From a virus, in IMG/VR virus record IMGVR_UViG_3300037222_000084, positions 22,894 through 86,893 of that record: DNA of 64,000 bases; one strand, written 5' to 3'. The notes under the pieces were generated by a model, which worked only from the letters and a program-made list of their open reading frames with translations, ran no database searches and was not told the origin of the DNA. Position numbers and translations under genes: made by a program. Positions 4,185-58,666 of the stretch are shown one piece after another. Every line of letters starts with the position of its first letter. Within the stretch, counting starts at the first letter, position 1.

Positions 4185-7100
4185 TTACTGAGTTTCTATA
4201 ACGTGATAATTCCACTGAAGAACATCTGTGGCGACTCCAGCAGATGCAAAGTTTATAGAAAATCCTGCTGTAGTTGATGTCACATACACTCCAAATATCA
4301 CGACGTTTTGTGCAGTCGTCGCATTGGTAGGCGTAATGACCACAATTGGAGCAACTCCGTATGCCGCATTGAAATTGACCGTAGTCTGCACTCCAGACGA
4401 CAGTGTGCCAATTGAACCCAAAGTAAGATTAACAACCCCTGCCGTATCCGTAGCATTGGCGACAGTACTTGTAGCTCCTGTACCAGCGTTGGCATTTACC
4501 GAAGCTGTGGGAGCGGTAGTTTGCGTTGACTTTATGTGACCGTTGTTTACGATCAAAACAGCGTCTGTAGACGCTACTGCTCCATTTAGTAAGCCAGCAT
4601 TGAGGTTGCTGTATACGAAGCTCCAATTGGCAGCCGTTGTTGGCGTTGCCACCAGTGCCGTAGCTACTAACTCTGTTTCAGATGCCATTGCTTGAATGAC
4701 GCTAGCGTTGGAAGACTGGACCGTAACAACACCCGTACTACTGTTAACAATCGTAAAGGTATCACCAGCAACTATACTTGTGGTTGGCAATTTTACGATT
4801 TGAGTTGTAACACCAGTGAAATACTGTTGAGCCTTAGAGCCCACCACCAAAGTGGTTGTTCCAGCAGCGGTCGCAGTAGTCGCAAAGCCTGATATAAAGC
4901 GATTCGCCGACATGTTTAGGTTGGCATCCCAACCAGCCCAAGAAGAAGCTGTTGCGGCAATAGTCACTGCGGTTTTCGCAGTTCCACCATTTGCAATGGG
5001 TAAGGCAGTGCCAGATAAAGTTACCGCCAACGTGCCAGATGTTGTGATGGGAGAACCAGCAATAGATAAAAATGCTGGAACGGACATCGCTACAGATGTA
5101 ACTGTTCCAGAGCCGCCTACGGTAGTCCAAGTAGGAGCGGCGGTTCCGCCACCAGATGTTAAAATCTGTCCCACGGTTCCGTTGGCCAAAAGCGCTGTTG
5201 TATTTACCGCCGTTTGATACGGTATAGAACCACCAAGTCCACCAGCAATATTCGTGGCGGTAGTTGCAGTCGTTGCACTTGTAGCGGTTGCGGCATTGCC
5301 GGTTGTACTTTGGTTAAGCGTAGGAATATCCGCAGCAACGATTAATCGAGCAGTTGGAGCGCCCGCCGAACCGTTAGGTGCGGCCAAGAAAGTGTTAGCA
5401 GCTTGAGACTGGAAGGTTAAAGTTCGAGTAGCTAGAGTGTAAGTGAACGGATTTGCCGTAACAACTGCTGCCGCCCAGTTCAAACCATCTGCGGCTGCCG
5501 AGTTAGCAACCAAGACGTTTCCATTGGCACCTACAGCAAGAACTGAGTCTCCTCCTACATTATTGGTGAGTAAACCACCTTTGACGCCAACGGCATCTAC
5601 GTGTTTGTAGAAATCAATATTCAATTCAGTTGAACTGATAGATTTACCGACGCCTACATACGTATCGTTGAATGGAGACGGTAGTGGAGAGATTTTTCCA
5701 GCAGTATTATCTATGTACTGTTCATAGCCAACAAATGGGCCGAAGCTGAATCCATTCATGTAGCCGCTTATGTAAATGTCTGCGACTGAACCAACAATAT
5801 TTGTGGCAAATCCCAGCATAACGCCAGGATCGCCAGAAATTGAGCCAGCCGCACCAGTAATAGTGGCTGGAACCCATTGCTGAGCGCCATCGGTCCACAT
5901 AACAACCATATGGTCTGTTACTGCACCGCTGATAGGGTTAGCCAAAAGGACGAGCGATGGAACTTGCGTAGCCGCCACAGCGTTAAGAACTCTATTGAGA
6001 AGAAAATTGTCTAATTGTAGATCCCACGCTGTAGCACTTGTGGTAGCGATGTGGAGAATGAGTCGATAATTTACGCTGTTCGCAGATGCTTTAAATTGAC
6101 CCACGAAAGTTTTAATGGTGCTTACGGGACCCTTTAAGGTTCTTAGCGGAACTACTGGGATTAAAACTGCGTTGGTAATATCGTAGACAAACACTTGTAC
6201 GTCAGAACTTGCGCCAAGAACCATTCCAGAAGAACCGTCATAGGCAAATGAAACTTGAAGTGTTTGGCCCTTATCTAGACTATTGATTATAAAATCTGTG
6301 CTTACGCCTTCGCCTTCGCGATTAGCTGCGTCCTTGCCGAGATCAAAACTAGCAGTTCCTATAATAGGATTGACCAAAGTTCTAGTGAATGTAACGCCCG
6401 TTACAACTCCGCCAGTTCCATCTACAGGCGCAACGTCTCCGCCATTAGCGGTGATATTGGCACCAGTTTCGTATTGCAAATTACCGGCTACCCCAGTAAT
6501 AGCAGCTGTGGCTAAAGCTACTGCTCCAGGAACGGCATCCCATGCAGCCTTAAGCTGTGTTGCTGTGGGGTTATTCGCTACAGTAGGTCCGTTATACCAA
6601 GCAACGGTGACGTGGGTAGACGACACAACCGTAACCAAAGGAGTAAGATAACTCTGTGTAGCATGAAATATGTAGTCGATGTCGATGCCATTACCAGCCG
6701 ACCCAGATGCAACTGCCGTAAACGTAATATCTTGTGCCACAACGAAGGCGGAAGCTGGATTACCCTGATCGTTATATAGATTCCATCCGGTCGTATTGAC
6801 TTCGGCATCTGGATTGGTTATATAATTGCCACGAGAAGCGTCAAGCTTATTGTTGAACGTGCTCCAATCTGCGGCTAACAAATATCCGTTGTGAGTCGCA
6901 TCTGCTACGTGCTGAGCAATAGAAGTGCCACTGCCGATGACAGCGCCTGTTCCGCCCGTAATAGTGATTCCATCAGTGCCTGCATCGGTGAGATTACCAA
7001 ATGTCAAAGCTGCTTGCTTATTGTTAAAAGTTGACCAGTCTGTTCCAGAAAGGGCACCTGTTACTCCAGCAGAAGCAATTCCTAGGCTTAATATTTGACC

Positions 7101-15559: not shown

Positions 15560-17557
15560 CTATCGCCCCTGAAGCTTTGGGTCGGCACCACTATCTGGAT
15601 GGGCAGGATACAAATTGTTGTAGTCTGGATTTCCTCCAGCTGCTTCAGTCTGAGCTTGCGGATCGTTGGTTTGATCTTCTGGCATTCCACCAGCAGGTTG
15701 TCCTTCTAGGACGCCTTCTTCAGGAGATAAAATGTTTGGAGATTCTTCTACTACGCCAGACGGCTGAGCAGCTTGGTCTTGGTCTAACCCAAGAAGCTTG
15801 GCCATTTCTATCATCGCTTTAAGCATAGCGATAGAAGACGCGTATAATTGAGGTGCTTCTAATTTAGCACGCTCAAGTATCATCTTACAGCCTTTGAATC
15901 CTTCCAAAGCTTCGCCAACCATAGCAACAACTTTTTCTCGTTTGATGCTGTCGGCATGACTGTCCAACCCTTGTTGCAGCACAGACGTAACATCTGGAGC
16001 ACCATCTGGTTGTTCGCCAAGTCCCATATCAGTGGGAGTATTCTGGCTATAGCTTTCTGGACGGCTAACGTTGCCTTCCATGTTAGTACCGCCAGGCAGG
16101 TCTGCGTCGTCAGCTTGACCTTCAGCGCGTAATGGAACTTGGTCAGCTCCAAGTGCGTCGATTTCATTTGTAATGCTTTCTATAGAATCGCTATTTTCTG
16201 GAGTACTGGTAGTTCCAACAGGAGGAGCAAACGGTTCTTGATATTCTTGAGCAGCAGGCCCGCCTTGTGAGTTTTCAAGAATGATGTTCTGATTGGATTT
16301 TGAATCAGTAGGTGCGGCCAATTTCGAGGGTTGCGAAGAAATAGCGGCAGGCTTGTCCATTCCTGGACGAGCAAGATCCTGACCGGCATAGTTCTGGCTA
16401 TCTTGAGTGGTAGGCAGTAATTCAGTAGAGGGATCGTTTGGACTTATGTTTTGATCGTCTCCGCCCATAGACTGAGCAGCTACTTGACAATAAGGACAAT
16501 CCTGTTCGTGACCTTCAGCATTAGGATCATGCGAGCCCATTTCCTGGCAATAAGGACAATCGTCAGTGTGACCTTCAGCATTAGGATCGTGATTCATTAC
16601 TGCGCAATAAGGACAATCATCGGCATGTCCTTCGGCATTAGGATCGTGCATTTGTACACAATAAGGACAGCTTTCGTCTTGAATGCCCTGAGCACTCAAT
16701 TCTTGACAATAAGGACAGTCGTGCTGTTCAGGAGCGGGCGCGGCCTCAACGGTAACATCTTCGTCTTTAGTTAGATTCGGTTTTTGTTGTTTCAGAGCGT
16801 GCATGGTATCATGATGGCGAGACATAGCCGTAGCTTTGTCACCAGCACGGGCATTTAGCCCAGCAGATGAAGCGCCAAGCAATTTTTTACTATGAGTAGA
16901 TTGATCTTTGTGATGATCGCTAGTAAAACCGGATAAACTGTCGTGCGTGCCCTTAGCTCTTGTTCCTGGAACCTTTTCGCCAGGTTTATCCATGTGCTGC
17001 GGCATCTTATGTTGATCTGGTCTAGGAGATGCCTTAGCCAGTTCGTCTTTAGTGATTGATTTGTCTTTGCCGTCCATAACCGTATCCTGTCCTTCAGGCC
17101 GCAAATAAGCGTCACCCTGTTTCTTTTCTTGTTCAGAAGCTGTCCCGTCTTCTAGTTTCAATTGAACTTGCTGAATTTCCTGTTCAATCCTGGGATCGTA
17201 GATGACTACTTGGTTCTTACCTCTGAATTTTGCCACTATTAGAGACTTGCCTGCCTCAGATAAAGTTTTACCTATACCTACAGACATAGTAAGCCTAGTA
17301 GCAAAATGATAATCCGTTCTCAACTGTTCAATATGATCTAGCGCTTCATGAGGTAAATGGAAGGTCCCTTCGTCACCGCCGCCAGATATAATTCCGCCGT
17401 TGTGCTCCTGAGCCCATTTTTTGACTATCTCGTGGCCAAGATTTATTCTTTCAGAGACTTCGCTCAGGGCAGCTGGATCATTGGACAATATAGCACGACC
17501 AACAAGCCTTCCAGCATTGTCACCGTCGTATGCTAATATCCACTGAAAATTATCCAC
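15560..17557 (-). CDS. mCpol/GGDEF-like nucleotidyl cyclase fused to zinc-knuckle repeats
   Basis: 665 aa. Residues 1-122 look like a GGDEF/Cas10-type palm domain closest to the minimal CRISPR polymerase (mCpol) family: YDGDNAGR (metal ligands D11, D13), GGGDEGTF (59-66, the GGDE loop), SVGIGKTLSEAGKSL (92-106) and AKFRGKNQVVIYD (109-121). Families with this palm make (cyclic) oligonucleotides or c-di-GMP. A charged linker follows, then five CPYC motifs (281, 297, 315, 334, 354) spaced 16-20 residues apart around DPNAEGH, probably zinc knuckles. The last 300 residues are acidic, Gln/Pro-rich with a helical segment at about 545-595. The gene lies among neck and tail genes, so the product may be virion-associated. 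Assignment is by motif; activity is not shown. Confidence 0.55.
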   Translation of the reverse strand: MDNFQWILAYDGDNAGRLVGRAILSNDPAALSEVSERINLGHEIVKKWAQEHNGGIISGGGDEGTFHLPHEALDHIEQLRTDYHFATRLTMSVGIGKTLSEAGKSLIVAKFRGKNQVVIYDPRIEQEIQQVQLKLEDGTASEQEKKQGDAYLRPEGQDTVMDGKDKSITKDELAKASPRPDQHKMPQHMDKPGEKVPGTRAKGTHDSLSGFTSDHHKDQSTHSKKLLGASSAGLNARAGDKATAMSRHHDTMHALKQQKPNLTKDEDVTVEAAPAPEQHDCPYCQELSAQGIQDESCPYCVQMHDPNAEGHADDCPYCAVMNHDPNAEGHTDDCPYCQEMGSHDPNAEGHEQDCPYCQVAAQSMGGDDQNISPNDPSTELLPTTQDSQNYAGQDLARPGMDKPAAISSQPSKLAAPTDSKSNQNIILENSQGGPAAQEYQEPFAPPVGTTSTPENSDSIESITNEIDALGADQVPLRAEGQADDADLPGGTNMEGNVSRPESYSQNTPTDMGLGEQPDGAPDVTSVLQQGLDSHADSIKREKVVAMVGEALEGFKGCKMILERAKLEAPQLYASSIAMLKAMIEMAKLLGLDQDQAAQPSGVVEESPNILSPEEGVLEGQPAGGMPEDQTNDPQAQTEAAGGNPDYNNLYPAHPDSGADPKLQGR

Positions 17558-23005: not shown

Positions 23006-24889
23006 TTAGCTAGTAATTACGTCGTCATCCAGCGTAACTGCGGTCTGGGCGTATAATGCGCCATGGACAGTTGCAGTTGTTTGAACTGCAATGTTCGTTT
23101 GGCCCAAGATGACGCCTTCGAAAACTGAGCTAACTCCAAGAGTTACAGCGCCACTCACTTGCCAGAAGATGTTCTGTGGCAGCAATCCGCCAGCCAAAGT
23201 TATGTGTACAGAAGTGCTAAGGCCTAAAGTGCCAGCTACCTGCATGATATACACGTCGCTTGGTCCACCGTTAAGGGTGAGCGCGGTTGGGATAGTAACA
23301 CCAGTAGTCCATTTGTACAGACCAGGGGTAAGCGACAATCCGCCAAGGTTTCCGCCACCAAGATTTGTGTGGTCAGGGCTAGTACGTCCAGCCGCATCAG
23401 TATACGCTGCTTGCATATCGCTAACAGCCGTAGTCAGATTGGATGGAGTAGGTGCCGTGTAATCTGCTGCGAAGATATGGCCAGTAACGTTTGGAGCAGT
23501 AGAGAATGTTCCGCTACCATCCATAGTTAAAGTAAATCCGGTGATCGCTGTTGCAGCGATTGGGCTGACTGCCATTTGGCCAGTGATTGCTGAACCAGAG
23601 GTATCGCTGATACCAGACTCAGACAAGATTCTGTAGTTTCCAGCGGTAGCCAGATTTACAGCGGCGGGACTGTTGCCAATGACATAAGCTGCGCTTGCGA
23701 TTGCAGAATTTGTGTCACCAGCGTGGACTGCCAATGCTTTGAGAGTTTCGCTAGAAGCTACAGACACAGGGCCTGAGTACAGAGTGCTTCCAGTGGTAGG
23801 AGTCGAACCGTCAGTAGTGTAGTAAATGGTCGATCCAGCTGTAACCGTAGAAATCGTAACCGATTGTATTCCAAGATATGATCCAGCGACTGGCGACATT
23901 GTTGGAGTTGCAACCGTAATTCCACCAGAAATAACATATGCAACGCTAGAAACGTTCGAGTTCAAGAAACCAGATGCAACCGAGATAGCTTTAACGGTTT
24001 CGCTAGAGCTTACGGAAATTGGTCCCGTATATAGGGTGCTTGCCGTGGTAGGAGTCGATCCATTAGTAGTGTAATAAATAGCGGCACCTACGGTAAGCGA
24101 AGAAAGGCTAACCGTTTGTGAGCTAGAATAAGTTCCAGCTGGAACTGAAGCGGCTGGAGCAGCTGCTTGATTAAGTACTGCGGTAGCTACAGTCGTAACG
24201 ACTGCGCCTAACACGGTAGCTGTTAAACCAACAGTATCAGCTGCAATAGCGGCTTGCGTATCAGCAGCGATAGTCGCAGCAGAGTCGCCTGAATTAATAG
24301 TGACTTCGACGCTTACTTGGCCAGGTAGAGTGGGATCTGTGTTTGATCCACCAGTAACATTGTACCAAACTACGTAAGTGTTTGCGTTACCAGCATTGTA
24401 AAGAAGAAAAGATGCGCCAGGACCAGTTGAAGGAAAAAGGCTACCGGCAGGCAAAGTAGACTGTACTTGTTGCCATCCGGTGTTTCCATACGTAGAAACA
24501 TTCAGAGAAAAACCAGCAGGCATAGACTGATTCTTTGGCTTGTTAGTGAGTTTGATAGGATTCGGAACAAAAGGAATAAGGTTTCCGATATTACGAGCAG
24601 CAAGAGCGGAAATTCCACCTGCTACGTTGGCTATGAATTCAGCCGCTAAAAGAGCGTTGGAAAAACCGTCTACCATTACTCTAATATCGTGTACGGAAAG
24701 GGCTTGTGTTCCAAGCATAGCTGCCTGGATGTTATCTGCAACTTTTTCATCGCCCATAGCAATGACCAATCGTTTCATGGTATAATGCGACAGTATGGAG
24801 CCATTAACGACGGCAAGGGCCAATTCGTTGCCAGCGATCTTACTAGTCAGCATGTCTACGAGATCGGCGGTTGTCTTTGTGGTTAGCAT
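23006..24889 (-). CDS. Virion adhesin with ice-binding-type (DUF3494) domain
   Basis: 627 aa. Residues 1-100 are helical and may anchor the protein to the particle. About 105-240 form a Thr/Val/Gly-rich beta region. Two tandem domains of about 75 residues (about 245-400) repeat TVSLSSLTVGAAIYYTTNGSTPTTASTLYTGPISVSSSETVKA with few changes; this is the CHB_HEX_C_1 type seen in bacterial surface proteins. The C-terminal 215 residues match the DUF3494 ice-binding/adhesion beta-solenoid: NYRILSESGISDT, GHIFAADY, DMQAAYTDAAGR, LTPGLYKWT, LNGGPSDVYIMQVAGTL, NIFWQVSGAVTLG, LGQTNIAVQTTATVHGALYAQ. Near the capsid genes it may be a head fibre binding ice, glycans or surfaces. Own promoter block and terminator. 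Confidence 0.75.
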   Translation of the reverse strand: MLTTKTTADLVDMLTSKIAGNELALAVVNGSILSHYTMKRLVIAMGDEKVADNIQAAMLGTQALSVHDIRVMVDGFSNALLAAEFIANVAGGISALAARNIGNLIPFVPNPIKLTNKPKNQSMPAGFSLNVSTYGNTGWQQVQSTLPAGSLFPSTGPGASFLLYNAGNANTYVVWYNVTGGSNTDPTLPGQVSVEVTINSGDSAATIAADTQAAIAADTVGLTATVLGAVVTTVATAVLNQAAAPAASVPAGTYSSSQTVSLSSLTVGAAIYYTTNGSTPTTASTLYTGPISVSSSETVKAISVASGFLNSNVSSVAYVISGGITVATPTMSPVAGSYLGIQSVTISTVTAGSTIYYTTDGSTPTTGSTLYSGPVSVASSETLKALAVHAGDTNSAIASAAYVIGNSPAAVNLATAGNYRILSESGISDTSGSAITGQMAVSPIAATAITGFTLTMDGSGTFSTAPNVTGHIFAADYTAPTPSNLTTAVSDMQAAYTDAAGRTSPDHTNLGGGNLGGLSLTPGLYKWTTGVTIPTALTLNGGPSDVYIMQVAGTLGLSTSVHITLAGGLLPQNIFWQVSGAVTLGVSSVFEGVILGQTNIAVQTTATVHGALYAQTAVTLDDDVITS

Positions 24890-32586: not shown

Positions 32587-33378
32587 ATGATCTATTTAAA
32601 CGGTAATCCCGTTAATACCACTCTCTTCCCTGACAACACCAGTCAAGTATGGAAGATACCCACCCTCGAAATTCCAGACACCAATTGGGTCCACGTAAAA
32701 TGGGACTTTTCGCATGAAGGCGAGTTTATCCAATTGGCCCAGCTTAAACAATTGCTCGATAAACGCGGTTTTCGTGCCGCATTGCGTCTTAGCTACCTGC
32801 CCTATGGCCGTCAAGACAAAGAAGTTTCAAACGACGCCACTTTCGCGCTTCGCACTTTCAACAAATACATAGACTTTATGGATTGGGACGAAATCATCGT
32901 AATGGACCCGCATAGCTCCGTAATCATGGACTATGTTCGTAATGTTCGGGCCGTATATCCTATCCAAGAACTCGAAAAGACACTAGCGCATACGGTTTCT
33001 ACTTTGGTCTGCTATCCCGACAAAGGCGCACTCGAAAAGTACACTAAAGTGTATCGCAGCATCGTTGAAGACGAATTCATCTATGGTGAAAAGGTCCGCG
33101 ATCAATCTACTGGAAATATTACAAGTTATCAATTAATCGGCAACCCCAAAGGCCACAGTGTCCTCATTGTTGATGACATTTGCGACGGCGGTGCCACATT
33201 CAAGCTTCTTGCCAAAGACCTATTGGCAGCAGGAGCTACGGAGGTAAATCTTTTTGTAACCCATGGAATTTTCTCACGAGGTCTGAGAACGCTCCAAGAA
33301 TCAGGAATTAAACGCATATTTACTCAAGATGGCGAAGCTAGTACCCATCAAGATCAAATCACTTATAGGAGATTATAA
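32587..33378 (+). CDS. Ribose-phosphate pyrophosphokinase-like protein (Prs/Adps family)
   Basis: 263 aa from the ATG at 32587 with AGGAG upstream. Family motifs are clear: SYLPYGRQDK (catalytic loop), VMDPHSS, CYPDKGALEKY, and the PRPP-binding loop VLIVDDICDGGATF. Cellular Prs makes PRPP from ribose 5-phosphate and ATP; it is about 315 aa, so this is a shortened phage form. In known phage NAD+ reconstitution pathways (NARP1) a Prs-like enzyme (Adps) instead pyrophosphorylates ADP-ribose and is encoded just before a NAMPT-like partner (Namat), the same two-gene layout as here. Which substrate is used cannot be told by eye. Confidence 0.8.
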   Translation: MIYLNGNPVNTTLFPDNTSQVWKIPTLEIPDTNWVHVKWDFSHEGEFIQLAQLKQLLDKRGFRAALRLSYLPYGRQDKEVSNDATFALRTFNKYIDFMDWDEIIVMDPHSSVIMDYVRNVRAVYPIQELEKTLAHTVSTLVCYPDKGALEKYTKVYRSIVEDEFIYGEKVRDQSTGNITSYQLIGNPKGHSVLIVDDICDGGATFKLLAKDLLAAGATEVNLFVTHGIFSRGLRTLQESGIKRIFTQDGEASTHQDQITYRRL

Positions 33379-33379
33379 C

Positions 33380-34870
33380 GTGAAAAATTTAATGAAAAGC
33401 CTACCGACTACAGTCCTCTGCGATTTCTATAAAATTGCACACCGTGCAATGTACCCAACTGGAACAGAAGTGGTTTATTCCACCTGGACACCGCGAGCCA
33501 GTCGCATGAAAGGCATAGATCAAGTTGTTGCCTTCGGCATGCAAGCCTTCATCAAGACCTACTTGATTGATTTCTTTGACACAAACTTCTTTGGTCGAGA
33601 AAAGTCCGTTGTAGTCGCTGAATACAAACGATTGATTTCAGCCACTCTTGGAGACCCCAATCCAGAGACCAAACACATCGAAGACCTTCACGATCTTGGC
33701 TTTTTGCCACTTTCAGTTAAAGCTCTCCCAGAAGGAACTCTTGTTCCGCTGCGCGTACCGATGATGACCCTCCAAAACACAGACAAACGGTTTTTCTGGT
33801 TAACAAACTTCGTAGAATCTTTGGCTTCTTGCGAGTTGTGGCAACCCACTACCAGCGCGACTATTGCGCGTGAGTACCGCAAGATCATGGACAAAGCAGC
33901 AATGGAGACGGTTGGCGACACTGGATTCGTAATGTTCCAAGGTCACGATTTCTCTATGCGCGGCATGTCTTCTCTGCAATCCGCAGTTTCTTCTGGCATG
34001 GGCCACCTGCTGTCATTCGTTGGCACAGACACTATTCCAGCAATTGTTGGAGCAGAAGTGCTCTACGGCGCAGATGTGACGAAGGAACTCGTTGGAACAT
34101 CCATTCCAGCCACAGAACACTCAATCCAATGCACTTACGGCGATGACCTGAAATACTTGGAGCGCATGCTCTCAGTGGTTCACCCAAATGGCTTCGTTTC
34201 CATCGTTTCTGATGGTTATGACTTTTGGGAAGTTATTCGCAGCGTGCTCCCTGCTCTCAAATCCAAAATCATGGCTCGTAGCGGTGGACCCGTTGGAGAC
34301 CGTGTGGTTATTCGCCCTGACTCTGGCGACCCTGTGCTGATAGTTTGCGGCGATCCAGATGCAACTCCTGGAAGCCTTGAGTATAAAGGCGCTGTAGAGG
34401 CTCTATGGGACATTTTCGGCGGGACCGAATCCTCTAAAGGATACAAAGTCCTCGATTCCCACATTGGCCTGATCTATGGTGACGCTATTACTCTCCGTCG
34501 TTGTGAAGAAATTTCCGAACGGCTGAAAGCCAAAGGTTTCGCCTCGATCAACTGCGTGTACGGCATTGGTAGCTACACCTATCAGTACAACACCCGTGAC
34601 ACCTTCGGATTTGCTCTTAAGAGCACATTAGCCGTGATAAACGGCGATGAAAAGCAGATTTTCAAAGATCCGAAAACTGATAATGGCATCAAGAAGTCAC
34701 AGAAAGGCCGTGTGGTCGTTCTTAAGGATGGCAATTCACTCAAGTTCGTCGATGGCCTTGGACTCAACGATGTCGTAGAAGGCGACCTGTTGACAGAAGT
34801 GTTCCGCGACGGTAAACTGTTGGTGGATCAAAAATTCTCCGAAATCAGAGCACGGCTCGCAGGACAGTAA
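33380..34870 (+). CDS. Nicotinamide phosphoribosyltransferase-like enzyme (NAMPT/Namat)
   Basis: 496 aa from the GTG at 33380 with a TAGGAG site; a start at 33329 would overlap the previous gene. NAMPT signatures: CDFYKIAHRAMYP at the N-terminus, GHDFSMRGM, SIPATEHS (the substrate-loop region), VVIRPDSGDP, YGDAITLRR and GSYTYQYNTRDTFGFALKS. The family joins nicotinamide to PRPP to make NMN; the phage NARP1 enzyme Namat joins nicotinamide to ADP-ribose pyrophosphate and gives NAD+ in one step. Coupled 1 nt after the Prs-like gene and 1-nt overlapping the NADAR gene, it forms the core of an NAD+ repletion operon. Confidence 0.85.
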   Translation: MKNLMKSLPTTVLCDFYKIAHRAMYPTGTEVVYSTWTPRASRMKGIDQVVAFGMQAFIKTYLIDFFDTNFFGREKSVVVAEYKRLISATLGDPNPETKHIEDLHDLGFLPLSVKALPEGTLVPLRVPMMTLQNTDKRFFWLTNFVESLASCELWQPTTSATIAREYRKIMDKAAMETVGDTGFVMFQGHDFSMRGMSSLQSAVSSGMGHLLSFVGTDTIPAIVGAEVLYGADVTKELVGTSIPATEHSIQCTYGDDLKYLERMLSVVHPNGFVSIVSDGYDFWEVIRSVLPALKSKIMARSGGPVGDRVVIRPDSGDPVLIVCGDPDATPGSLEYKGAVEALWDIFGGTESSKGYKVLDSHIGLIYGDAITLRRCEEISERLKAKGFASINCVYGIGSYTYQYNTRDTFGFALKSTLAVINGDEKQIFKDPKTDNGIKKSQKGRVVVLKDGNSLKFVDGLGLNDVVEGDLLTEVFRDGKLLVDQKFSEIRARLAGQ

Positions 34871-38854: not shown

Positions 38855-39999
38855 AACTACCTATTCTGTACAAGAAGACTTCCACGGGCGCAATTCAGTC
38901 GTGGAGAACTTTTGTGATCGACCAACGTGGCTCTGCCACAGCCGCTGTTATCGTCACGGATTTTGGACAAGTGGAAGGCAAGATTCAAACCACCCAAGAT
39001 TTGATCCAAGAAGGCAAGAACATTGGTAAAAAGAACGAAACTACTCCTCGCCAACAGGCAGAGTTAGAGGCTAAAGCTAGCTGGGAAAAGAAGAAGAAAA
39101 GCGGATACGTCGAATCTATTGGCGATGCCATGGATAACAAGACCGACGACCTTATCGAAGGTGGCGTTCTGCCCATGTTGGCCAAAAAGTTCTCAGAGCA
39201 AGCCAATAAGATCAAATATCCCTGTTTTACTCAGCCAAAACTAGACGGCATTCGCTGTGTTGCCATCGTCAAAGACGGTGCCTGTACCCTTTGGTCTCGT
39301 ACCCGCAAACAGATAAAATCCTGCCCACACATCGTTCAAGAGCTAGAAGCAGCATTCGAGACTAGAGATATTATCCTAGATGGTGAGCTTTATAACCACG
39401 ATTTTAAGTCAAATTTCGAGCACATCGTACATTTGGTTCGCCAAGACAAAACCCCAGACCCACAGCATACTGACGTGCAATACCATGTTTACGACGTGAT
39501 TGAGGATAAGCTATGCGGTCCCACTTTCGCTGATCGCACTGAAAACCTCGATATTATATTTGCTGCCTACGAGTTTTATAGCATCAAGCAAGTTGATACG
39601 GAAGAAGTCGAATCTGAAGATCAAGTAATGGAGTTTTTTGAGAAATTTCGTGCAATGGGCTATGAAGGCTCCATGCTTCGTAATTACGACTCAAAATACG
39701 TCAATAAACGCTCTAATGATCTTCAAAAAGTCAAAGAATTCGATGATGGTGAATTCAAGGTCACTGGTATCAAAGAGGGCCGTGGTAAATTGGCCGGTCA
39801 CGCCATTTTCATTTGCGTTGACAACAAAGGCGACGAATTTGAGGCTAAACTCAAAGGCGACACGTCCAGACTTAAAGAGTATTTTGACGACCATTCCCTG
39901 TGGAAGGGCAAACAGTTAACCGTACAATATCAAGGGCTTACTGGTAAAAATAAAGTTCCACGTTTCCCTGTTGGCGTGGCGATTAGAGACTATGAATGA
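38851..39999 (+). CDS. ATP-dependent DNA ligase
   Basis: 382 aa. The adenylation motif KLDGIR (K130 as the AMP-accepting lysine) is followed by WSRTRKQIK (motif Ia region), ILDGELYNHDF (motif III), YEGSMLRN (motif IV) and LQKVKEF (motif V), with an OB-fold at the C-terminus. The first 85 residues (ILYKKTSTGAIQSWRTFV...GKNIGKKNETTPRQQA) are a WGR-like DNA-binding module found in other phage ligases. It seals nicks during replication and recombination. Overlaps both neighbours (ATGA). Confidence 0.9.
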   Translation: MKLPILYKKTSTGAIQSWRTFVIDQRGSATAAVIVTDFGQVEGKIQTTQDLIQEGKNIGKKNETTPRQQAELEAKASWEKKKKSGYVESIGDAMDNKTDDLIEGGVLPMLAKKFSEQANKIKYPCFTQPKLDGIRCVAIVKDGACTLWSRTRKQIKSCPHIVQELEAAFETRDIILDGELYNHDFKSNFEHIVHLVRQDKTPDPQHTDVQYHVYDVIEDKLCGPTFADRTENLDIIFAAYEFYSIKQVDTEEVESEDQVMEFFEKFRAMGYEGSMLRNYDSKYVNKRSNDLQKVKEFDDGEFKVTGIKEGRGKLAGHAIFICVDNKGDEFEAKLKGDTSRLKEYFDDHSLWKGKQLTVQYQGLTGKNKVPRFPVGVAIRDYE

Positions 40000-41946: not shown

Positions 41947-41955
41947 TAGTAACCT
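41927..41955 (+). promoter_or_regulatory. Promoter of tRNA-Pro and structured RNA
   Basis: TTGACT (41927-41932), 17-bp spacer, TAACCT (41950-41955). A start 7-8 nt downstream falls at 41962-41963, the first base of the tRNA. Confidence 0.6.
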
Positions 41956-41962
41956 TATAAGT

Positions 41963-42039
41963 CTAAGCGTGGCCGGAAATAGGTGCGGGCTAGGTCTGGA
42001 ACCTAGAAGATGCAGGTGCAAGTCCTGTCGCTTAGACCA
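41963..42039 (+). tRNA. tRNA-Pro (UGG), CCA encoded
   Basis: Acceptor CTAAGCG/CGCTTAG is perfect, with C1-G72 and A73 as in bacterial tRNA-Pro, followed by an encoded CCA. The anticodon stem CTAGG/CCTAG holds the loop TCTGGAA, anticodon TGG; position 33 is C rather than U. T-arm GCAGG/CCTGT with loop TGCAAGT (G at position 55). CCA is a common Pro codon in this phage. Confidence 0.8.
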
Positions 42040-42053
42040 TTTTATATAATATT

Positions 42054-42621
42054 GGCGTTAGGGACTTTGACCATATCTTAACTGATGGATCAAAGTACGG
42101 GTGGACAGTCCGAGCTTGGATGCTAGCCTGAGACCGAACCGTGAAGCTAGGGTTTCGTAGAAATACGGCCCAAAGTCCTAACGAGAGAGTTCCGTGAGAA
42201 CTTTCGTTAGTTGTTCTATGGTGTATAGCTAAACTAAGCTCTATATCAAGCTATTGGGAAGGCCATAGAAAGCTAGGTAGACCGACAGAGTTTGCGGCGG
42301 GTTGTAGTTTAATTACGAAAACATTTGCCAAAAAAGGGGTTGCAAACCCTTCTGGAGTAACGACCAGACTACCTATTTTTTTATTTGTTTTTAAGCGGTT
42401 GACGGGAGGCCAAAATCCCACCTGGAGCAGTAGCGAATGACCCGCTGAGCAAGGTCGGCGTAAACGGGAGTTACCGCTTTGTTTTTAGATAGAAGTGTGG
42501 TAGATGCGTTGAATATTCTGTACGAAGCTCACAAACACGCTGGACCCGCACGGTTGGTGCCCATACAAATGCGCGTGGCACCGCAGACCTGTCAGCGCGA
42601 CCTGACGAGCTAGAGTAGCGA
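42054..42621 (+). ncRNA. Large structured RNA region downstream of tRNA-Pro
   Basis: No plausible ORF exists in this 0.57-kb stretch, but long helices are dense: CGTTAG(G)GACTTTG/CAAAGTCCTAACG (42056-42069/42171-42183), a CTAACG...CGTTAG hairpin (42178-42209), TTCTATGG/CCATAGAA (42214/42263), TAGGTAG/CTACCTA (42274/42369) closed over TCTGG/CCAGA and AGGG(G)TT/AACCCT hairpins and followed by T7ATTTGTTTTT, AAGCGGT/ACCGCTT (42393/42473) followed by TTTGTTTTT, GGTGCC/GGCACC (42556/42577), GTCAG/CTGAC (42591/42602) and GCTAG/CTAGC (42609/42622). Size and location next to a tRNA in a large phage resemble the ornate RNA classes ROOL and GOLLD; identity is not established. It may be one RNA or two or three shorter ones ending at the T-tracts. 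Confidence 0.65.
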
Positions 42622-43392
42622 CTAGCCTATCTTTCTTTGTTCTGAGTAGAGATCGAAGCCTTCAGATTGATAGTCTAGTTTACCATTCTTATCAAATCCA
42701 AAACCCCTAGTGAGATAGACTAAAGTGCAGCGACAATGTGGATGAAGGCCAAAGGCAGACGGAGAATTCTCGCCGCGCTTATGGTAACTTTGCTTAAGTT
42801 CGCTAAACTTGTAAAGCCTGGGCGTGATCTGGTCAGGCATCATGTGGAGCCTCAAGCACTCCTTACAGGTAGCGTTGTCACGGACGACTACGAAGAAGCA
42901 AGTTGGATCATTGTCACCAACACTAGCTGCCATTCGACTTATACTCATTAGACTGCCAATATTGCGCAGTTTGGTCGCCTCAGACTCAACAATAGCCAAA
43001 AGTTTAAATCTAGCCTTGTTCATTTCTTCTGTGATTACCGCTTTAACCGCCGATTCAGATGCTCGTTCACCGCGCACGCTGGCCTCTTTGGTCAGGCCGT
43101 CAATTCGCTCAATGAGATTCGACTTAGTTTGGCTCTTTACCGATTCAATATATCCATCAGCACTAGCCAATAGGCCCTTCAAAGCGTCCTGCTCTATTGA
43201 GTTTGGAACCTTGTTTTCCATAGCTTGAACGAATAGGTGCGAAAGCGCCATATTTGGTGCTGTACTGAAAACCATGGTCTTTTTGTTTTTGAATCTGGGG
43301 AGATTACCTAGGAACTGCAAGGCAATATTATCGAACATGTTTTCGATGATAGTGCCAATGTTTTCCTTGCCAGAACTAGAGATCCCATTCAT
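42622..43392 (-). CDS. MuF-like minor head protein
   Basis: 256 aa. The C-terminal half carries the Mu gpF/SPP1 gp7 head-morphogenesis signature: RDNATCKECLRLH (CxxC), then SAFGLHPHCRCTLVYL (HPHCRC), probably a zinc-stabilised fold. The N-terminal half is helical. In related phages a few copies enter the head with the portal and are needed for assembly or ejection. The gene lies two steps downstream of the portal gene, the usual order. Its stop overlaps a GCTAG/CTAGC hairpin shared with the structured RNA region. Confidence 0.75.
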   Translation of the reverse strand: MNGISSSGKENIGTIIENMFDNIALQFLGNLPRFKNKKTMVFSTAPNMALSHLFVQAMENKVPNSIEQDALKGLLASADGYIESVKSQTKSNLIERIDGLTKEASVRGERASESAVKAVITEEMNKARFKLLAIVESEATKLRNIGSLMSISRMAASVGDNDPTCFFVVVRDNATCKECLRLHMMPDQITPRLYKFSELKQSYHKRGENSPSAFGLHPHCRCTLVYLTRGFGFDKNGKLDYQSEGFDLYSEQRKIG

Positions 43393-45968: not shown

Positions 45969-47444
45969 CTATTCAGCAGCCGCTAAAAAGACGTTTGCAG
46001 CGACTAGGCCGTTATTGGTTACACTCAGGGAGTATATGGTAGAGGTGAGCATCAGTATTCCAGGAGTGCTAACACCTAGGGCTGACGATGGAAGTCCAGT
46101 AGGGCAATTGGTCACAACGAAAGGTTGAATTTGTGCTGCCAAAGCGACCCCATTTACGGTCACGGTTAGGTTTTGGTCGCTTTCCATATAGATGATTGAC
46201 TTAGCCATTGAATAAATTACAACTGGCGATAGAATGTTCGTTTCTTGTGGCAAAATTGCCGTGGAAGAAAATTCCAAAGATTCTGCGTATACAGCCGTTA
46301 TTACGTAGCTGCCCCATGAGACTGGGGAGAAGCCTGACGAGATCACGAGAGTATCGCCGACTTGTACGCCTGCATCGCTAAAGATCTGCAATTGCGTAGC
46401 AAAGCTAGCACCTAAAGTGATAGGTCCTTCTCCGACAGCCGCAGTATTCACAACTGAGAAGCTAATAGGAGTCATTGAGATAATTTGAAATGTTCCCTGA
46501 TTGTCAGCATTGAAATCGCTACCAACCGTCACGAAATCGCCCACTACGACGCCGCTAGTGACCAAATTCAATGGCTGTGCAGCTGCTCCGCCAGATAGAG
46601 ATATAGTGTCAGGAGATTCGCCGCCAGACAAAGCCATGGTTGCGCCAATGGCTGGTGTTTGTGTACCAAGACCAGCAGTCTCGGTAACTTGGTCTCCTGG
46701 ATTAGCAGCATTCCAAGCAGCGACTAGACCAGATATGGTCGAAGTGCCATCGCCAGTCAGGACTATCGAATTACCTGCGGCTCCTATGTTGTTGGCTGTC
46801 AATGTGATAGGAAGGGTTGTTCCAGTTGGAGTGCCAGTGTAGCTAGCAAATGTGCCCACAGTAGGGGTTTGACTGCCATCGCCGGATGTTAGCGCAATCG
46901 TGTTACCAGGGTTGGCCGTATTCCAGTTTGCGATCAAGGTGTTTATGGTCGAAATGCCATCGGTGTCCAGAACTACGGTATTACCGATAACTCCGAGACT
47001 AGTCGCTGTAATAGTTACAGAGGTCGTCATTCCAGTGACAATGCCAGTAAAAGACGCTGCGGTGGCAAAAGTGCTAGTGAATGTAAAAGTTTCAACTGGG
47101 CCATTTACGGTAGTCGTTACCTGTGTAGTCGATGCTATTGGAATAGCTCGTGGGGTACGGAAATCAGGCTTAGTGCCAGATGCCCAAGAAAGCACGTAAA
47201 CAGTTGTATTTAAAGGCTTTAATGTCAAGGAATAGTGGGTAGTACCGTCCTGTAGCGTGGTACGGACTCCGCTAGATAGGAGCTGGGTCGTTCCAGGAGC
47301 GATTGTATAATCTTCACTTTTAGGGTTATTTACGACCAAACCCTGTAGGTCTCTGGCCCATTTGATTGGACTACGAGAAGGCGCATTGGAAGGCCTGTTA
47401 TCGTCGTAAGCATTCAAAATTACTGACAAACTCAATTTACTCAT
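45969..47444 (-). CDS. Repeat-containing virion surface protein
   Basis: 491 aa, beta-rich and almost Cys-free. It has a folded N-terminal domain (about 1-110), then two to three tandem units of about 60 residues with the pattern GNxIVLxxDGxSTIxxLxAxWNxANPGxxxxxTxGxGxQTP, followed by a Gly/Ser-rich region and a C-terminal domain with SMAKSIIYMESDQNLTVTVNG. A similar unit (GNGIDIDYI...AAWDAVPG) lies in the tail fibre. Such modules decorate phage particles. AAGAGG ribosome site and a promoter block at 47474-47483. Placed between terminase and portal. Confidence 0.65.
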   Translation of the reverse strand: MSKLSLSVILNAYDDNRPSNAPSRSPIKWARDLQGLVVNNPKSEDYTIAPGTTQLLSSGVRTTLQDGTTHYSLTLKPLNTTVYVLSWASGTKPDFRTPRAIPIASTTQVTTTVNGPVETFTFTSTFATAASFTGIVTGMTTSVTITATSLGVIGNTVVLDTDGISTINTLIANWNTANPGNTIALTSGDGSQTPTVGTFASYTGTPTGTTLPITLTANNIGAAGNSIVLTGDGTSTISGLVAAWNAANPGDQVTETAGLGTQTPAIGATMALSGGESPDTISLSGGAAAQPLNLVTSGVVVGDFVTVGSDFNADNQGTFQIISMTPISFSVVNTAAVGEGPITLGASFATQLQIFSDAGVQVGDTLVISSGFSPVSWGSYVITAVYAESLEFSSTAILPQETNILSPVVIYSMAKSIIYMESDQNLTVTVNGVALAAQIQPFVVTNCPTGLPSSALGVSTPGILMLTSTIYSLSVTNNGLVAANVFLAAAE

Positions 47445-51595: not shown

Positions 51596-51653
51596 AGTCG
51601 CAAGGAAGAGGTTTGTGGGGCAGTGGAATGCTACGATTAGGATTGTTGCTCAT
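51585..51653 (-). CDS. Possible 22-aa peptide coupled to GroEL-like gene
   Basis: ATG overlaps the chaperonin stop as TAATG and has AGAGG six nt upstream. The frame (MSNNPNRSIPLPHKPLPCDY, then Glu-Tyr) ends 11 nt inside the next gene. It fills the gap with a good ribosome site, but at this size it may be only a re-initiation bridge. Confidence 0.35.
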   Translation of the reverse strand: MSNNPNRSIPLPHKPLPCDYEY

Positions 51654-53425
51654 TATGGCCTCTCGTTAGCTTCATTTACATGTGCGTTTGGATTTTCTAC
51701 GTTTCTGGTGAACTCACTGTCCAGCCCAGCTTCGGTGCGCTCAAAAACATCATCCCTAGGATGACATACCATTCCGCCCATAGTACCTAAGATTACCGCA
51801 ATACTTACGGCGTTGCTCAAACTCTCTGAGACGGCTTTGGTGGCGTCAAATAGGCCTAATTCCTCGGCTTTTCCGAATTTCTGGTTTTCAATATCGTACA
51901 CTAAACCGCTGTCCATAACCAGTTTAGATATCACGTCCGAAATCTCTTCTGACGTGTGGCCAGCGTTTTCTAGCAGTCTCAAAGGCAATGACATAAGGGC
52001 TGGAACCAACACGTCTCGTGCGGGATCTCCAATTTCTAATTCAGCTCCTAATTTAAGAGCAAGATCAATTGCGACACGAGCGCCGCCAGGTAGAGCGCCG
52101 TGACTAATAGCAGCACGAACCGAGCACACAGCGTCTTCACAGCGGTCGTGCGCTTCCTTAAGTTCACCATTTGAACCACCGTAGATGGTGAGTTTTGCGA
52201 TTCCATTCGTAATTTTTCCTATGCGTTCTTGTAGCCATGTTTTTTCAAATGCGCTTTCAGGGTTAAGCATCATAGTTTTCAACTCTTCTGCGCGAGCCTC
52301 AATGTTGATAGGCTCTGGATCACCGATAACAGTAGTACGGAAACGATAAGTTTCAATGCTAGTCATTCCAGAGCCAAGGTCTGCCAAAGTAGCAGTTGAG
52401 ATTTGATCTTTCATCCCAAACAGTTTGGCACCAGTGAAAGCAGACAAATCCTGAAGGAAATGCAGCTGACTGTTCACGACTTGAACCATAGGAGTAACTA
52501 GCGGTAGAACATTGATAGTGTTTGGATCGGAGAAATTGAAGGCCAAATTAATAAGGACGTTCTCACTGAATCCATGTGAAAAGATGACCAAATTCTTATA
52601 CTTAGAGTCTTTTTCGTTCATGAACTTATTACCAAGTTCAACGATCAAAGGCATGATTGCAACTAAGTCGTTTACTTGTCCATCGAACAACAAAAACAAT
52701 GGGTCTTCAAGATAGCAACGTTGATTGGCCTGATCGTTGATAAATGCGGTATGAAGCTTGCCGATTGAGTCTTCATAGCCCATTGGAATAGGGAAACCGT
52801 CAATACGTTCAACCGTGTAATTCTTTTTGCCAGACAATTCGCGGATAGTAACGTGTGAAGCGTCGCCGTAGCCAATCTCTTCGAATGCTTTAATAACAGC
52901 AGACGCCATTTCTTCATCGCCATTAGCGCTAATCTGTGCAACCATCTTTAAGAGGTTTTGATTGCTCTCGTCGATTTTGATGCTACGATCAAGAATATAA
53001 GGAACAAGAATAGAATCTGTAACTTTTGCAATCCGACGTGCAGCTTTCTGCGGACTATATTTTGGATTTTTTTCACAGAAGTCGAAAAGGTTCTCAATCA
53101 AAGCGTGGCTGAGCACGGTAGCGGTGGTAGTTCCATCGCCAGCTTCAGAAGCAGTCCGCATAGCGGCGTCACGAGCTTGTTCAATGATTAGATGCTCATA
53201 GGCATCAACCGATCCCAGAGATTTAAACACGGTCACGCCGTCTTTGGTGTTTTTATTGGGAATGCCAGGATAATCGCTTTCGATCAGGATATTTCGTCCG
53301 CCAGGGCCAAGAGTGCGACCGACTGCGCGAGAAACTCGACTCATTGCGCTAAGAACCTTCTTTTTAAGAATTTTCTCGTCTACTTCAAATATCTTAGGTG
53401 CTGATTTAGCTTTGCGACTTGACAT
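51653..53425 (-). CDS. groEL: GroEL-like group I chaperonin
   Basis: 590 aa. Cpn60 signatures: VGRTLGPGGRNILI, TKDGVTV, EAGDGTTTATVLSHAL (ATP-binding GDGTT, residues 96-100), SHGALPGGARVA, and DATKAVSESLSNAVSIAVILGTMGGMV matching the C-terminal equatorial helix. The apical domain (about 200-390) is strongly diverged and the GGM-repeat tail is replaced by an acidic stretch. It is longer than E. coli GroEL (548 aa). A GroES-like protein is encoded at 56.2 kb. Phage chaperonins of this kind fold virion proteins. Promoter TTGACA-N17-TATAAG at 53556-53584. Confidence 0.9.
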   Translation of the reverse strand: MSSRKAKSAPKIFEVDEKILKKKVLSAMSRVSRAVGRTLGPGGRNILIESDYPGIPNKNTKDGVTVFKSLGSVDAYEHLIIEQARDAAMRTASEAGDGTTTATVLSHALIENLFDFCEKNPKYSPQKAARRIAKVTDSILVPYILDRSIKIDESNQNLLKMVAQISANGDEEMASAVIKAFEEIGYGDASHVTIRELSGKKNYTVERIDGFPIPMGYEDSIGKLHTAFINDQANQRCYLEDPLFLLFDGQVNDLVAIMPLIVELGNKFMNEKDSKYKNLVIFSHGFSENVLINLAFNFSDPNTINVLPLVTPMVQVVNSQLHFLQDLSAFTGAKLFGMKDQISTATLADLGSGMTSIETYRFRTTVIGDPEPINIEARAEELKTMMLNPESAFEKTWLQERIGKITNGIAKLTIYGGSNGELKEAHDRCEDAVCSVRAAISHGALPGGARVAIDLALKLGAELEIGDPARDVLVPALMSLPLRLLENAGHTSEEISDVISKLVMDSGLVYDIENQKFGKAEELGLFDATKAVSESLSNAVSIAVILGTMGGMVCHPRDDVFERTEAGLDSEFTRNVENPNAHVNEANERP

Positions 53426-56686: not shown

Positions 56687-56925
56687 AATATTTACTATTA
56701 GCCCTATTGTTGACTGGCTGTGCTTCCAATGGTATCAAGGACTTCAACTGCTACAAAGTCAGTGGACCTCAGACAGCCTCTGGCCCTCTCAATAAGCATG
56801 AGTTGGAACGGATGATAAAAGAAACTGATCTGCAAGTGAAGCTGTTCTCAGATAAGCCCGTATACTATGTATGCGAAGAAGTCACCCCAGTGAAAGAACC
56901 TAGACAGTACCCCAAGGGCAAATGA
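56683..56925 (+). CDS. Small lipoprotein
   Basis: 80 aa. Lipoprotein signal with lipobox LTGC (Cys13). The mature part has two further cysteines and a helical, charged middle. Overlaps the co-chaperonin stop and the endonuclease VII start (ATGA on both sides). A second phage lipoprotein besides the one at 1172; function unknown. Confidence 0.65.
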   Translation: MKYLLLALLLTGCASNGIKDFNCYKVSGPQTASGPLNKHELERMIKETDLQVKLFSDKPVYYVCEEVTPVKEPRQYPKGK

Positions 56926-57308
56926 AGACTTGTAATGTTTGTTATTTAGAAAAAGACAGTAAAATGTTTCAACATGGAACCAGAAGGTGCAAGTCTTGTG
57001 ATTCCAAGAGGGCTTCTGTGTGGAATAAAGCCAATCCACATAAACGAAGAATAGTCAGTAGAAGAAATAAACTGAAAACACAATACGGAATCACGCCAGA
57101 ACAGTACGATGCTATGGTTTTAGCGCAAGATTCTAAATGCTCTATTTGTTTCAAGAAAACGAAACTAGTAATAGACCACGACCATTCGACTGGTAAAATT
57201 AGAGAACTACTTTGTAATAATTGTAACGGGGGAATAGGGTATCTCAGAGATAGTCTCATTAACCTAAAAAATGCCGTTAACTATTTGGAAACACATGCGA
57301 ATACTTAG
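56922..57308 (+). CDS. Endonuclease VII-like Holliday-junction nuclease
   Basis: 128 aa. Two CxxC pairs at the N-terminus (CNVCYLEKD and CKSCDSK) may bind zinc. The core YGITPEQYDAMVLAQDSKCSICFKK...VIDHDHSTGKIRELLCNNCNGGIGYLRDS contains the zinc-binding CxxC/CxxC and the DHDH catalytic histidines of the T4 gp49 (recombination endonuclease VII, ββα-metal) family. It resolves DNA branches before packaging. Shorter than T4 gp49 (157 aa). Confidence 0.85.
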   Translation: MKTCNVCYLEKDSKMFQHGTRRCKSCDSKRASVWNKANPHKRRIVSRRNKLKTQYGITPEQYDAMVLAQDSKCSICFKKTKLVIDHDHSTGKIRELLCNNCNGGIGYLRDSLINLKNAVNYLETHANT

Positions 57309-58296
57309 GATCGGAGATCCGCATATCAAACCCAGCAACCTTGAGGAAGCTGAGAAATTATTTCACTTCATCAATGACCAGATCTTGGAACTACAGCCAG
57401 ATCGAGTCGAGATTCTTGGTGATTTGTTTCACACGCACGCCATCATTAGGATGGAAGTATTGGAGTTTTGGAATGGTTGGCTTGATGTATTAGTAACCCA
57501 TGAGAATATTGAATTTGTTATTCTTATAGGCAACCACGATATGACTGGAAGCTATCATTCTCACACTTCAGCCTTAGGTGTGTTCAAACACATGGCCAGG
57601 AAGCATCGGAATCTCAAGATTGTTGAGAATCCAAGGACAGAAGGAATTTATGGATACGTCTCCTATACCCATGACAGAAATACGTTCTATGATATTGCAC
57701 GCGGGCTTGCTAGTGAAGGAGCCAAGATACTCGTGTGTCATCAGTCATTTCTCACATCCAAGTTCGAGTCTGGCACCTATGATCCAGACGGTTTTGACCC
57801 CAGCCAAATCCCCTTCGATCTCATCATCTCAGGACATATTCACGCCCATCAAAAATGTATTGCCGATGGAAAGACCATAATCCATCCTGGAACGCCTAAA
57901 TGGGACACTCTGTCTGACGCGAACCAGGAAAAGGGCATTTGGCTGTATGAGCATGACGATGTAACTGGCGCTATCCTGTCAGAACGCATGATCGGCACCA
58001 AACATGTGGTCACAAAGATCGTAGAGATCGTGTGGGAAGAGGGAAAGCCACTTCCAGCCATCGAGAGTGGCGTTAAGACGACGATTGAGCTGATTGGCTC
58101 ATCAGCATGGGTATCAGAGCACAAAAAGGCCCTAAAGGGCCATTACGGGCTCAAATCGCAGATTACAGACAGGGCAGACAAGTCGGAACGCAAGCCTGGT
58201 AAGAATTTCCAGGATTTTATGTTGAATCTTTACGTGACCAAGGCAGACAAGTCTAAGTTATTGGAATATATGAGGAACAATGGAATCATCGGATGA
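57295..58296 (+). CDS. SbcD/Mre11-like nuclease (T4 gp47 type)
   Basis: 333 aa from the ATG at 57295, overlapping the previous gene by 14 nt. Phosphodiesterase motifs: RIGDPHIK (I), EILGDLFHTH (II), LIGNHDMTG (III), LVCHQSF (IV) and ISGHIHAHQ (V). The C-terminal 90 residues form the cap/binding part. With the SbcC-like ATPase at 60.5 kb it would make the phage recombination nuclease that processes DNA ends, as gp46/gp47 do in T4. Five genes separate the two, unlike the usual adjacent order. Confidence 0.85.
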   Translation: MRILRIGDPHIKPSNLEEAEKLFHFINDQILELQPDRVEILGDLFHTHAIIRMEVLEFWNGWLDVLVTHENIEFVILIGNHDMTGSYHSHTSALGVFKHMARKHRNLKIVENPRTEGIYGYVSYTHDRNTFYDIARGLASEGAKILVCHQSFLTSKFESGTYDPDGFDPSQIPFDLIISGHIHAHQKCIADGKTIIHPGTPKWDTLSDANQEKGIWLYEHDDVTGAILSERMIGTKHVVTKIVEIVWEEGKPLPAIESGVKTTIELIGSSAWVSEHKKALKGHYGLKSQITDRADKSERKPGKNFQDFMLNLYVTKADKSKLLEYMRNNGIIG

Positions 58297-58666
58297 TAAT
58301 GCAGCAAATGTAGTCAAAGACATGGCCAAATTGGTCCTAGTTGCTGGCAAGATTTCTGACATGCACGTAAAAAATATGCAGATGTACCCGTTGATCTACT
58401 TCAATGGCGTGAAAACAGTAAAAATTGACTACGATCTGTCCCACAAGGCCGACGCTTTAGTGGACAAAGATAATAACCTAACCATCAACGCTCCGCACAG
58501 AAGCAACGTTGTCACGTACTACCTGACAATGCATGAAGGTGCCGTCAACGACAAACTGGACAAGCGCTATGCCGCTTTGACAGCTTCTATCAGGACCTTG
58601 TTTTGGAAAGATGTAGTGGTAGAAGTGTTCATGGACGAGAAAATCGTCTATAAGAGTAAAAAATGA
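58280..58666 (+). CDS. Hypothetical protein, 128 aa
   Basis: Starts within the end of the SbcD-like gene (17-nt overlap) and ends with an ATGA overlap. Mixed alpha/beta: KDMAKLVLVAGKISDMHVKNMQM, YPLIYFNGVKTVKIDYDLSH and SNVVTYYLTMHEGAVND, with a Lys-rich end. No family recognised; the location suggests a recombination accessory protein. Confidence 0.6.
   Translation: MESSDDNAANVVKDMAKLVLVAGKISDMHVKNMQMYPLIYFNGVKTVKIDYDLSHKADALVDKDNNLTINAPHRSNVVTYYLTMHEGAVNDKLDKRYAALTASIRTLFWKDVVVEVFMDEKIVYKSKK

Follow-up and report, generated by a model that had tools for sequence, protein, structure and literature searches.

The non-coding interval between tRNA-Pro and the head gene, in the 64,000-nucleotide stretch of DNA analyzed here (the window; positions 22894-86893 of an 86.9 kb virus record), is best read, with a probability around 0.6, as a cassette of small RNA genes, two of which are copies of an autonomous, cloverleaf-shaped, trans-acting phage RNA with protein- or nuclease-facing surfaces. 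Judged from sequence comparison, the two copies are members of a family which had not been described before and has no entry in Rfam 15; no description of it was found in the literature searched, the coverage of which is incomplete. Comparison of large Mx1-related phages, in which the family recurs, shows at the level of predicted structure a shared architecture, covariation of the helices, a U-tract end, a promoter frequently of its own, and copies often in tandem.

The portal protein of the window's phage is 47% identical to its counterpart in Myxococcus phage Mx1, and up to 94% identical to those of metagenomic relatives. Portal alignment led to 80 relative loci; viral contigs searched with the head gene as anchor gave no match. 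Upstream of the gap lies a plus-strand operon made up of DNA ligase, RNA ligase, small ORFs and tRNA-Pro (anticodon TGG; 41963-42036, plus strand), the latter matched by Rfam RF00005 with 36.6 bits and not called by ARAGORN in the window. Downstream is the convergent head gene (42622-43392). The vicinity of tRNA-Pro had been pointed out in the initial annotation and is confirmed; the promoter said to coincide with the tRNA start is not, as no promoter-like site was called there. Family copies are found in the ligase-to-head interval of loci L039 and L030, as in the window. In L013, the closest relative (its portal is 94% identical), this gene pair is separated by just about 100 nt, which are unrelated, and the interval is therefore hypervariable. 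Most of the other family loci searched with ARAGORN are devoid of tRNAs, which makes the tRNA adjacency incidental.

Other features of these genomes were recorded in passing. The window encodes a protein with an ice-binding-like domain (PF11999) and chitobiase-type domains (23006-24889, minus strand), a 665-aa protein with an mCpol/Cas10-like polymerase domain (15560-17557, minus strand), a nicotinamide phosphoribosyltransferase (33329-34870, plus strand) and a cpn60-type chaperonin (51653-53425, minus strand); Mx1 also has one of each of the last two. Insertions of about 1.1-1.3 kb, probably inteins or introns, interrupt at fixed sites the head gene in L014, L027, L057 (residue 220) and L053 (178), and the portal gene in L083 and L088.

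The gap had been described as about 0.57 kb (42054-42621) of strongly structured non-coding RNA, an observation real in part, and interpreted in a way which was right in part. No ORF of at least 60 aa is found in 41947-42621 on either strand, and the 13-bp helix with one bulge (42056-42069/42171-42183), the 8-bp helix (42214-42221/42263-42270) and two T-tracts (42376-42382 and 42480-42486) are all present. As a statistical claim, strong structure does not hold: the minimum free energy of the gap corresponds to z = -1.45, 1 of 20 shuffles folding as well (p about 0.08). Perfect 8-bp stems number 2 vs. 1.7 expected from shuffles, perfect stems of at least 7 bp 11 vs. 6.7. The bulged 13-bp helix is the sole unusual stem, matched in 2/60 shuffles. 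Because folding energy is ordinary and most stems are near chance, structure was tested by comparison. What emerges is not a single ornate RNA of 0.57 kb, as had been suggested, but a row of separate units, about 100-150 nt each, behind tRNA-Pro. A structured element is there, its end having been misplaced; it reaches about 42632 and overlaps the head gene's stop codon.

All units lie on the plus strand. In unit A (42056-42183; z = -1.9 as a single-sequence fold) the 13-bp helix closes a domain, and unit C (42214-42270; z = -0.81) is a hairpin whose closing stem is TTCTATGG/CCATAGAA. Homologues were found for none of units A to C (42056-42270), unit A having been looked for by blastn in named phages and in the whole records of relatives. 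Unit D (42274-42375), identified by descriptor scan and by the covariance model R3 described below, is a probable first copy of the family. Its closing stem P1 (UAGGUAG/CUACCUA, 42274-42280/42369-42375) is directly followed by a U7 tract (42376-42382), and its last hairpin, hp4 (42351-42355/42364-42368), has the loop AGUAACGA, one difference away from the family consensus NGU(A/C)GCGN; no P2 arm was identified in this unit. Unit F (42487-42632) is the second and better-supported copy, a family member by statistically supported sequence homology. P1 (AGAUAG/CUAUCU) spans 42487-42492/42627-42632, a candidate P2 (GUGUG/CGCAC) 42495-42499/42547-42551, with an internal loop UAGAU/UGGAC resembling the AGAU/UGGAA of relative G029, hp4 (GCUAG/CUAGC) 42609-42613/42622-42626, with the loop AGUAGCGA at 42614-42621. 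UUCUUUG directly follows P1, in a U-rich tail extending to 42639. The folding energy of unit F is unremarkable (z = -0.88), as is that of most family members.

The family came to light because the 3' hairpin of unit F (GCUAG AGUAGCGA CUAGC) recurs in the relative G032. Scanning for stem plus loop, P1 not required, revealed the hairpin also in G008, G029 and G049, and in all five sequences the strand immediately following hp4 pairs with a strand about 130-240 nt upstream, closing the RNA. More members were found in the recA-like/orf311 spacer of G021, in L039 and L035, and by descriptor scans, a relaxed regular expression for P2 returning mostly noise. The family resides in about 12-14 related phage records. 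Three copies are found in G035, three in G023, two of which are adjacent, and two each in G001, G029 and the window. The RNAs, about 100-260 nt long, are built on the same plan. A P1 stem of 6-8 bp is followed by a linker, mostly of 2 nt, and by P2 (GCGUG/CACGC), which has 5 bp and an internal loop conserved as either GAAAGCUG/CUAGAGA or AGAU/UGGAA; variable middle hairpins precede hp4, which has 5 bp and the 8-nt loop NGU(A/C)GCGN. The 3' strand of hp4 abuts that of P1, and a U-rich tract follows.

Covariation in all three conserved helices (P1, P2 and hp4) gives this predicted structure good support. When nine members, unit F among them, were aligned by blocks, one bulged base having been taken out of G035c, 144/144 helix cells pair and 12/16 pairs are changed on both sides, figures which are partly circular, since some members had been picked for pairing and variable arms had been removed. 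A covariance model built from seven full sequences (R2) matches further copies in G035 (G035b, E = 1.2e-11), G029 (2.7e-9), G049 (2e-7), G023 (4.6e-15) and G014 (8.7e-13), and unit F with E = 0.029 in 1.8 Mb. Among 19 distinct R2 members, 96.6% of helix cells pair and double changes are seen at 15/16 pairs, with a covariation score of 0.595, vs. 0.238 in shuffled and at most 0.12 in slid alignments; having been fitted to the model, this alignment leans towards structure. Model R3, built from nine members without the window sequence, finds in the window 42487-42639 (29.8 bits, E = 2.4e-6) and 42275-42381 (14.2 bits, E = 0.028), and the two copies keep the same order with filters off. The E-values of both models are rough, the calibrations being short. 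In the large relatives G033, G036, G042 and G044, whole-record searches returned no family match with E of 1 or below, which shows that the model does not match indiscriminately; counts from whole-record searches are lower bounds, as the coarse first look missed the window's own copies. The homologues and the covariation that the initial annotation had proposed to look for in related phages are thus found, and its suggestion of a new class stands. Its other suggestion, membership in ROOL or GOLLD, does not, no match to these, to group I/II introns or to HEARO being found in Rfam at E up to 10.

Between the two copies resides a different element, D4 (42393-42479), recognized by blastn and by its four members. 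The closing stem (42393-42399/42473-42479) is followed by a U-tract (42480-42486), and the conserved stretch UUGACGGGAGGCCAAAAUCCCACC occupies 42399-42422. By blastn against whole records of relatives, window positions 42396-42474 match G002 (79% identity, E = 7.7e-9); pattern scans added G046 and G049, and a covariance model from the first three members matches the fourth (E = 0.001). All carry UUGACGGGARRCCAARA, after which the window and G002 continue with UCCC, G046 and G049 with CUCC. In the window, UCCC (42416-42419) may pair with GGGA (42466-42469), and the downstream partner switches in step, from GGGA to GGAG, accounting for two compensatory pairs. A pseudoknot with a UUG/CAA helix is thereby implied, the evidence from four sequences being suggestive. 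In G049, D4 sits inside the P2 arm of the family RNA. A pattern search of bacterial genomes for D4 gave no true match.

Sigma70-like promoter sites scoring at least 9/12, and ending 3-8 nt before P1, precede 6 of 21 family copies, vs. 0.4 expected from shuffled upstream sequences; none of 200 shuffle sets reached the observed mean score. The position of these sites places the putative 5' end of the RNA at P1. A U-rich tract is found after most copies. The two copies in the window have no good promoter of their own (6/12), and are thus probably read from the tRNA-Pro/ligase operon, the transcripts presumably ending at P1 plus U-tract. The gene neighbours of the copies are unrelated, and some copies, including those in the window, lie at convergent gene ends where their own strand carries no further gene downstream, which favours a role in trans. 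Several members fit snugly between co-directional recA-like and orf311 genes, where a role in cis is conceivable. The copies in G021, G029 and G014 fill co-directional intergenic space, with a U-tract and then a Shine-Dalgarno-like AAGGA, and the next start codon lies about 9-12 nt beyond their end; hp4 of the window scored as terminator-like. These data would suit a leader, an attenuator or a multi-branched terminator serving the adjacent operon. Such cis-acting elements are an unlikely explanation of the family, at odds with the copies located at convergent ends, the differing neighbours, the tandem copies and the several promoters placed at P1.

According to the trans-acting reading, the mature RNA would have a rigid frame, P1 being stacked on the flush hp4 arm much as the acceptor and T arms stack in tRNA. 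The frame would expose two conserved single-stranded surfaces, the internal loop of P2 and the loop of hp4, to a putative RNA-binding protein or nuclease of host or phage, for which the RNA might be a decoy, a scaffold or a regulator; the arms of the variable middle may be specificity or spacer modules. A bolder version, according to which the family represents autonomous phage RNAs of a new, tRNA-shaped class, tandemly amplified and shuffled between loci, and acting in trans on host defence nucleases directed against tRNA or RNA, as their bait or scaffold, is doubtful.

The 7-bp stem, the 2-nt linker and the final hairpin set flush against this stem make a tRNA-like topology, tRNA-Pro is a neighbour, and relatives commonly carry tRNAs and tmRNA, all of which could suggest that the cloverleaf-like frame is a decayed tRNA, or that the units are degenerate or expanded tRNA or tmRNA genes. 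This is quite improbable. With E up to 10, neither the tRNA nor the tmRNA model of Rfam matches the units, RF00005 matching tRNA-Pro only, and tmRNA (RF00023) is unmatched in the window's record at E up to 1. The conserved loops of P2 and hp4 are not tRNA sequences, and covariation maintains the stems, unlike what decay would do. Phage-encoded tmRNAs were located in Mx1 (46646-47023, overlapping an annotated Hef-like endonuclease ORF), G021 (142799-143196) and G004 (102679-103104). Separately, elements resembling tRNA, which have acceptor, D and T arms and an extended anticodon region containing CCAAAAG, are found in L245 (about 2410-2305, minus strand) and L017 (about 4815-4930, plus strand); their GACCAAAAGTC hairpin is also present in the G002 array.

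Scattered loci, tandem copies and absence from the closest relative might equally denote a mobile RNA, intron-like, HEARO-like or a transposing non-coding RNA, inserted at changing sites. The odds are just as poor, since intron and HEARO models are unmatched, the borders of the copies are a promoter and a U-tract rather than target-site marks, and no associated endonuclease or transposase was seen. That the gap is a neutral spacer with chance hairpins is less probable still. In its favour, shuffles come close in folding energy and in most stem counts, and units A to C lack homologues. Against it, D, D4 and F have homologues that are statistically supported and carry compensatory changes, and with D4 and F chance is thereby refuted. 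Identity with ROOL, with GOLLD or with any other of the known large ornate RNAs, suggested by total size and tRNA neighbour, can be practically discarded, given no Rfam match, units of 100-260 nt and a differing architecture, the ROOL/GOLLD identity being refuted at the sensitivity of the Rfam search (window, E up to 10).

Further candidates were tried and rejected. RNase P RNA, brought to mind by ACCUGGAGCA and similar stretches, has no Rfam match at E up to 10, and the bases are lost in homologues. Matches to the 16-mer AATCCCACCTGGAGCA are mostly in unrelated tRNAs and genes. Group I intron and retron have no model match and no associated gene. For Ro/Y RNA, the TROVE protein was not found in the window's record; Ro60-like TROVE proteins are encoded in G010 (39034-39906) and Mx1 (56915-58564). 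Neither the region nor one family member matched named phages by blastn, and Rfam 15, run with E cut-offs of 1 to 10 on the window units, G002, G049, G021 and the G035 array, gave no match.

With this family, the few structural RNAs of phages that lack an assigned function gain a concrete new entry, and the several copies with defined ends can be expressed, deleted, or used as protein bait. By description, the family can be likened to T4 'species 1' and 'species 2', small stable phage RNAs encoded beside tRNA genes. ROOL and GOLLD are structured phage non-coding RNAs often located near tRNA islands, ROOL having no assigned role either (PMC12286853). ROOL, however, is a large RNA forming an octameric nanocage, whereas the family has three conserved helices in about 100-260 nt and is unmatched in Rfam. 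GOLLD combines a conserved 3' part and a variable 5' part (PMC12286853), but many GOLLD RNAs exceed 800 nt and feature other conserved motifs. The tmRNA (RF00023) is structured, phage-encoded, of similar length and present in the same phage group (Mx1 and two relatives), yet differs in locus and sequence. The closest likeness in plan is with tRNA, which has the same closing stem, 2-nt linker and last 5-bp hairpin flush with the closing stem; the family RNAs differ in length, in dispensing with the anticodon arm, and in carrying the 8-nt NGU(A/C)GCGN loop in place of the T loop.
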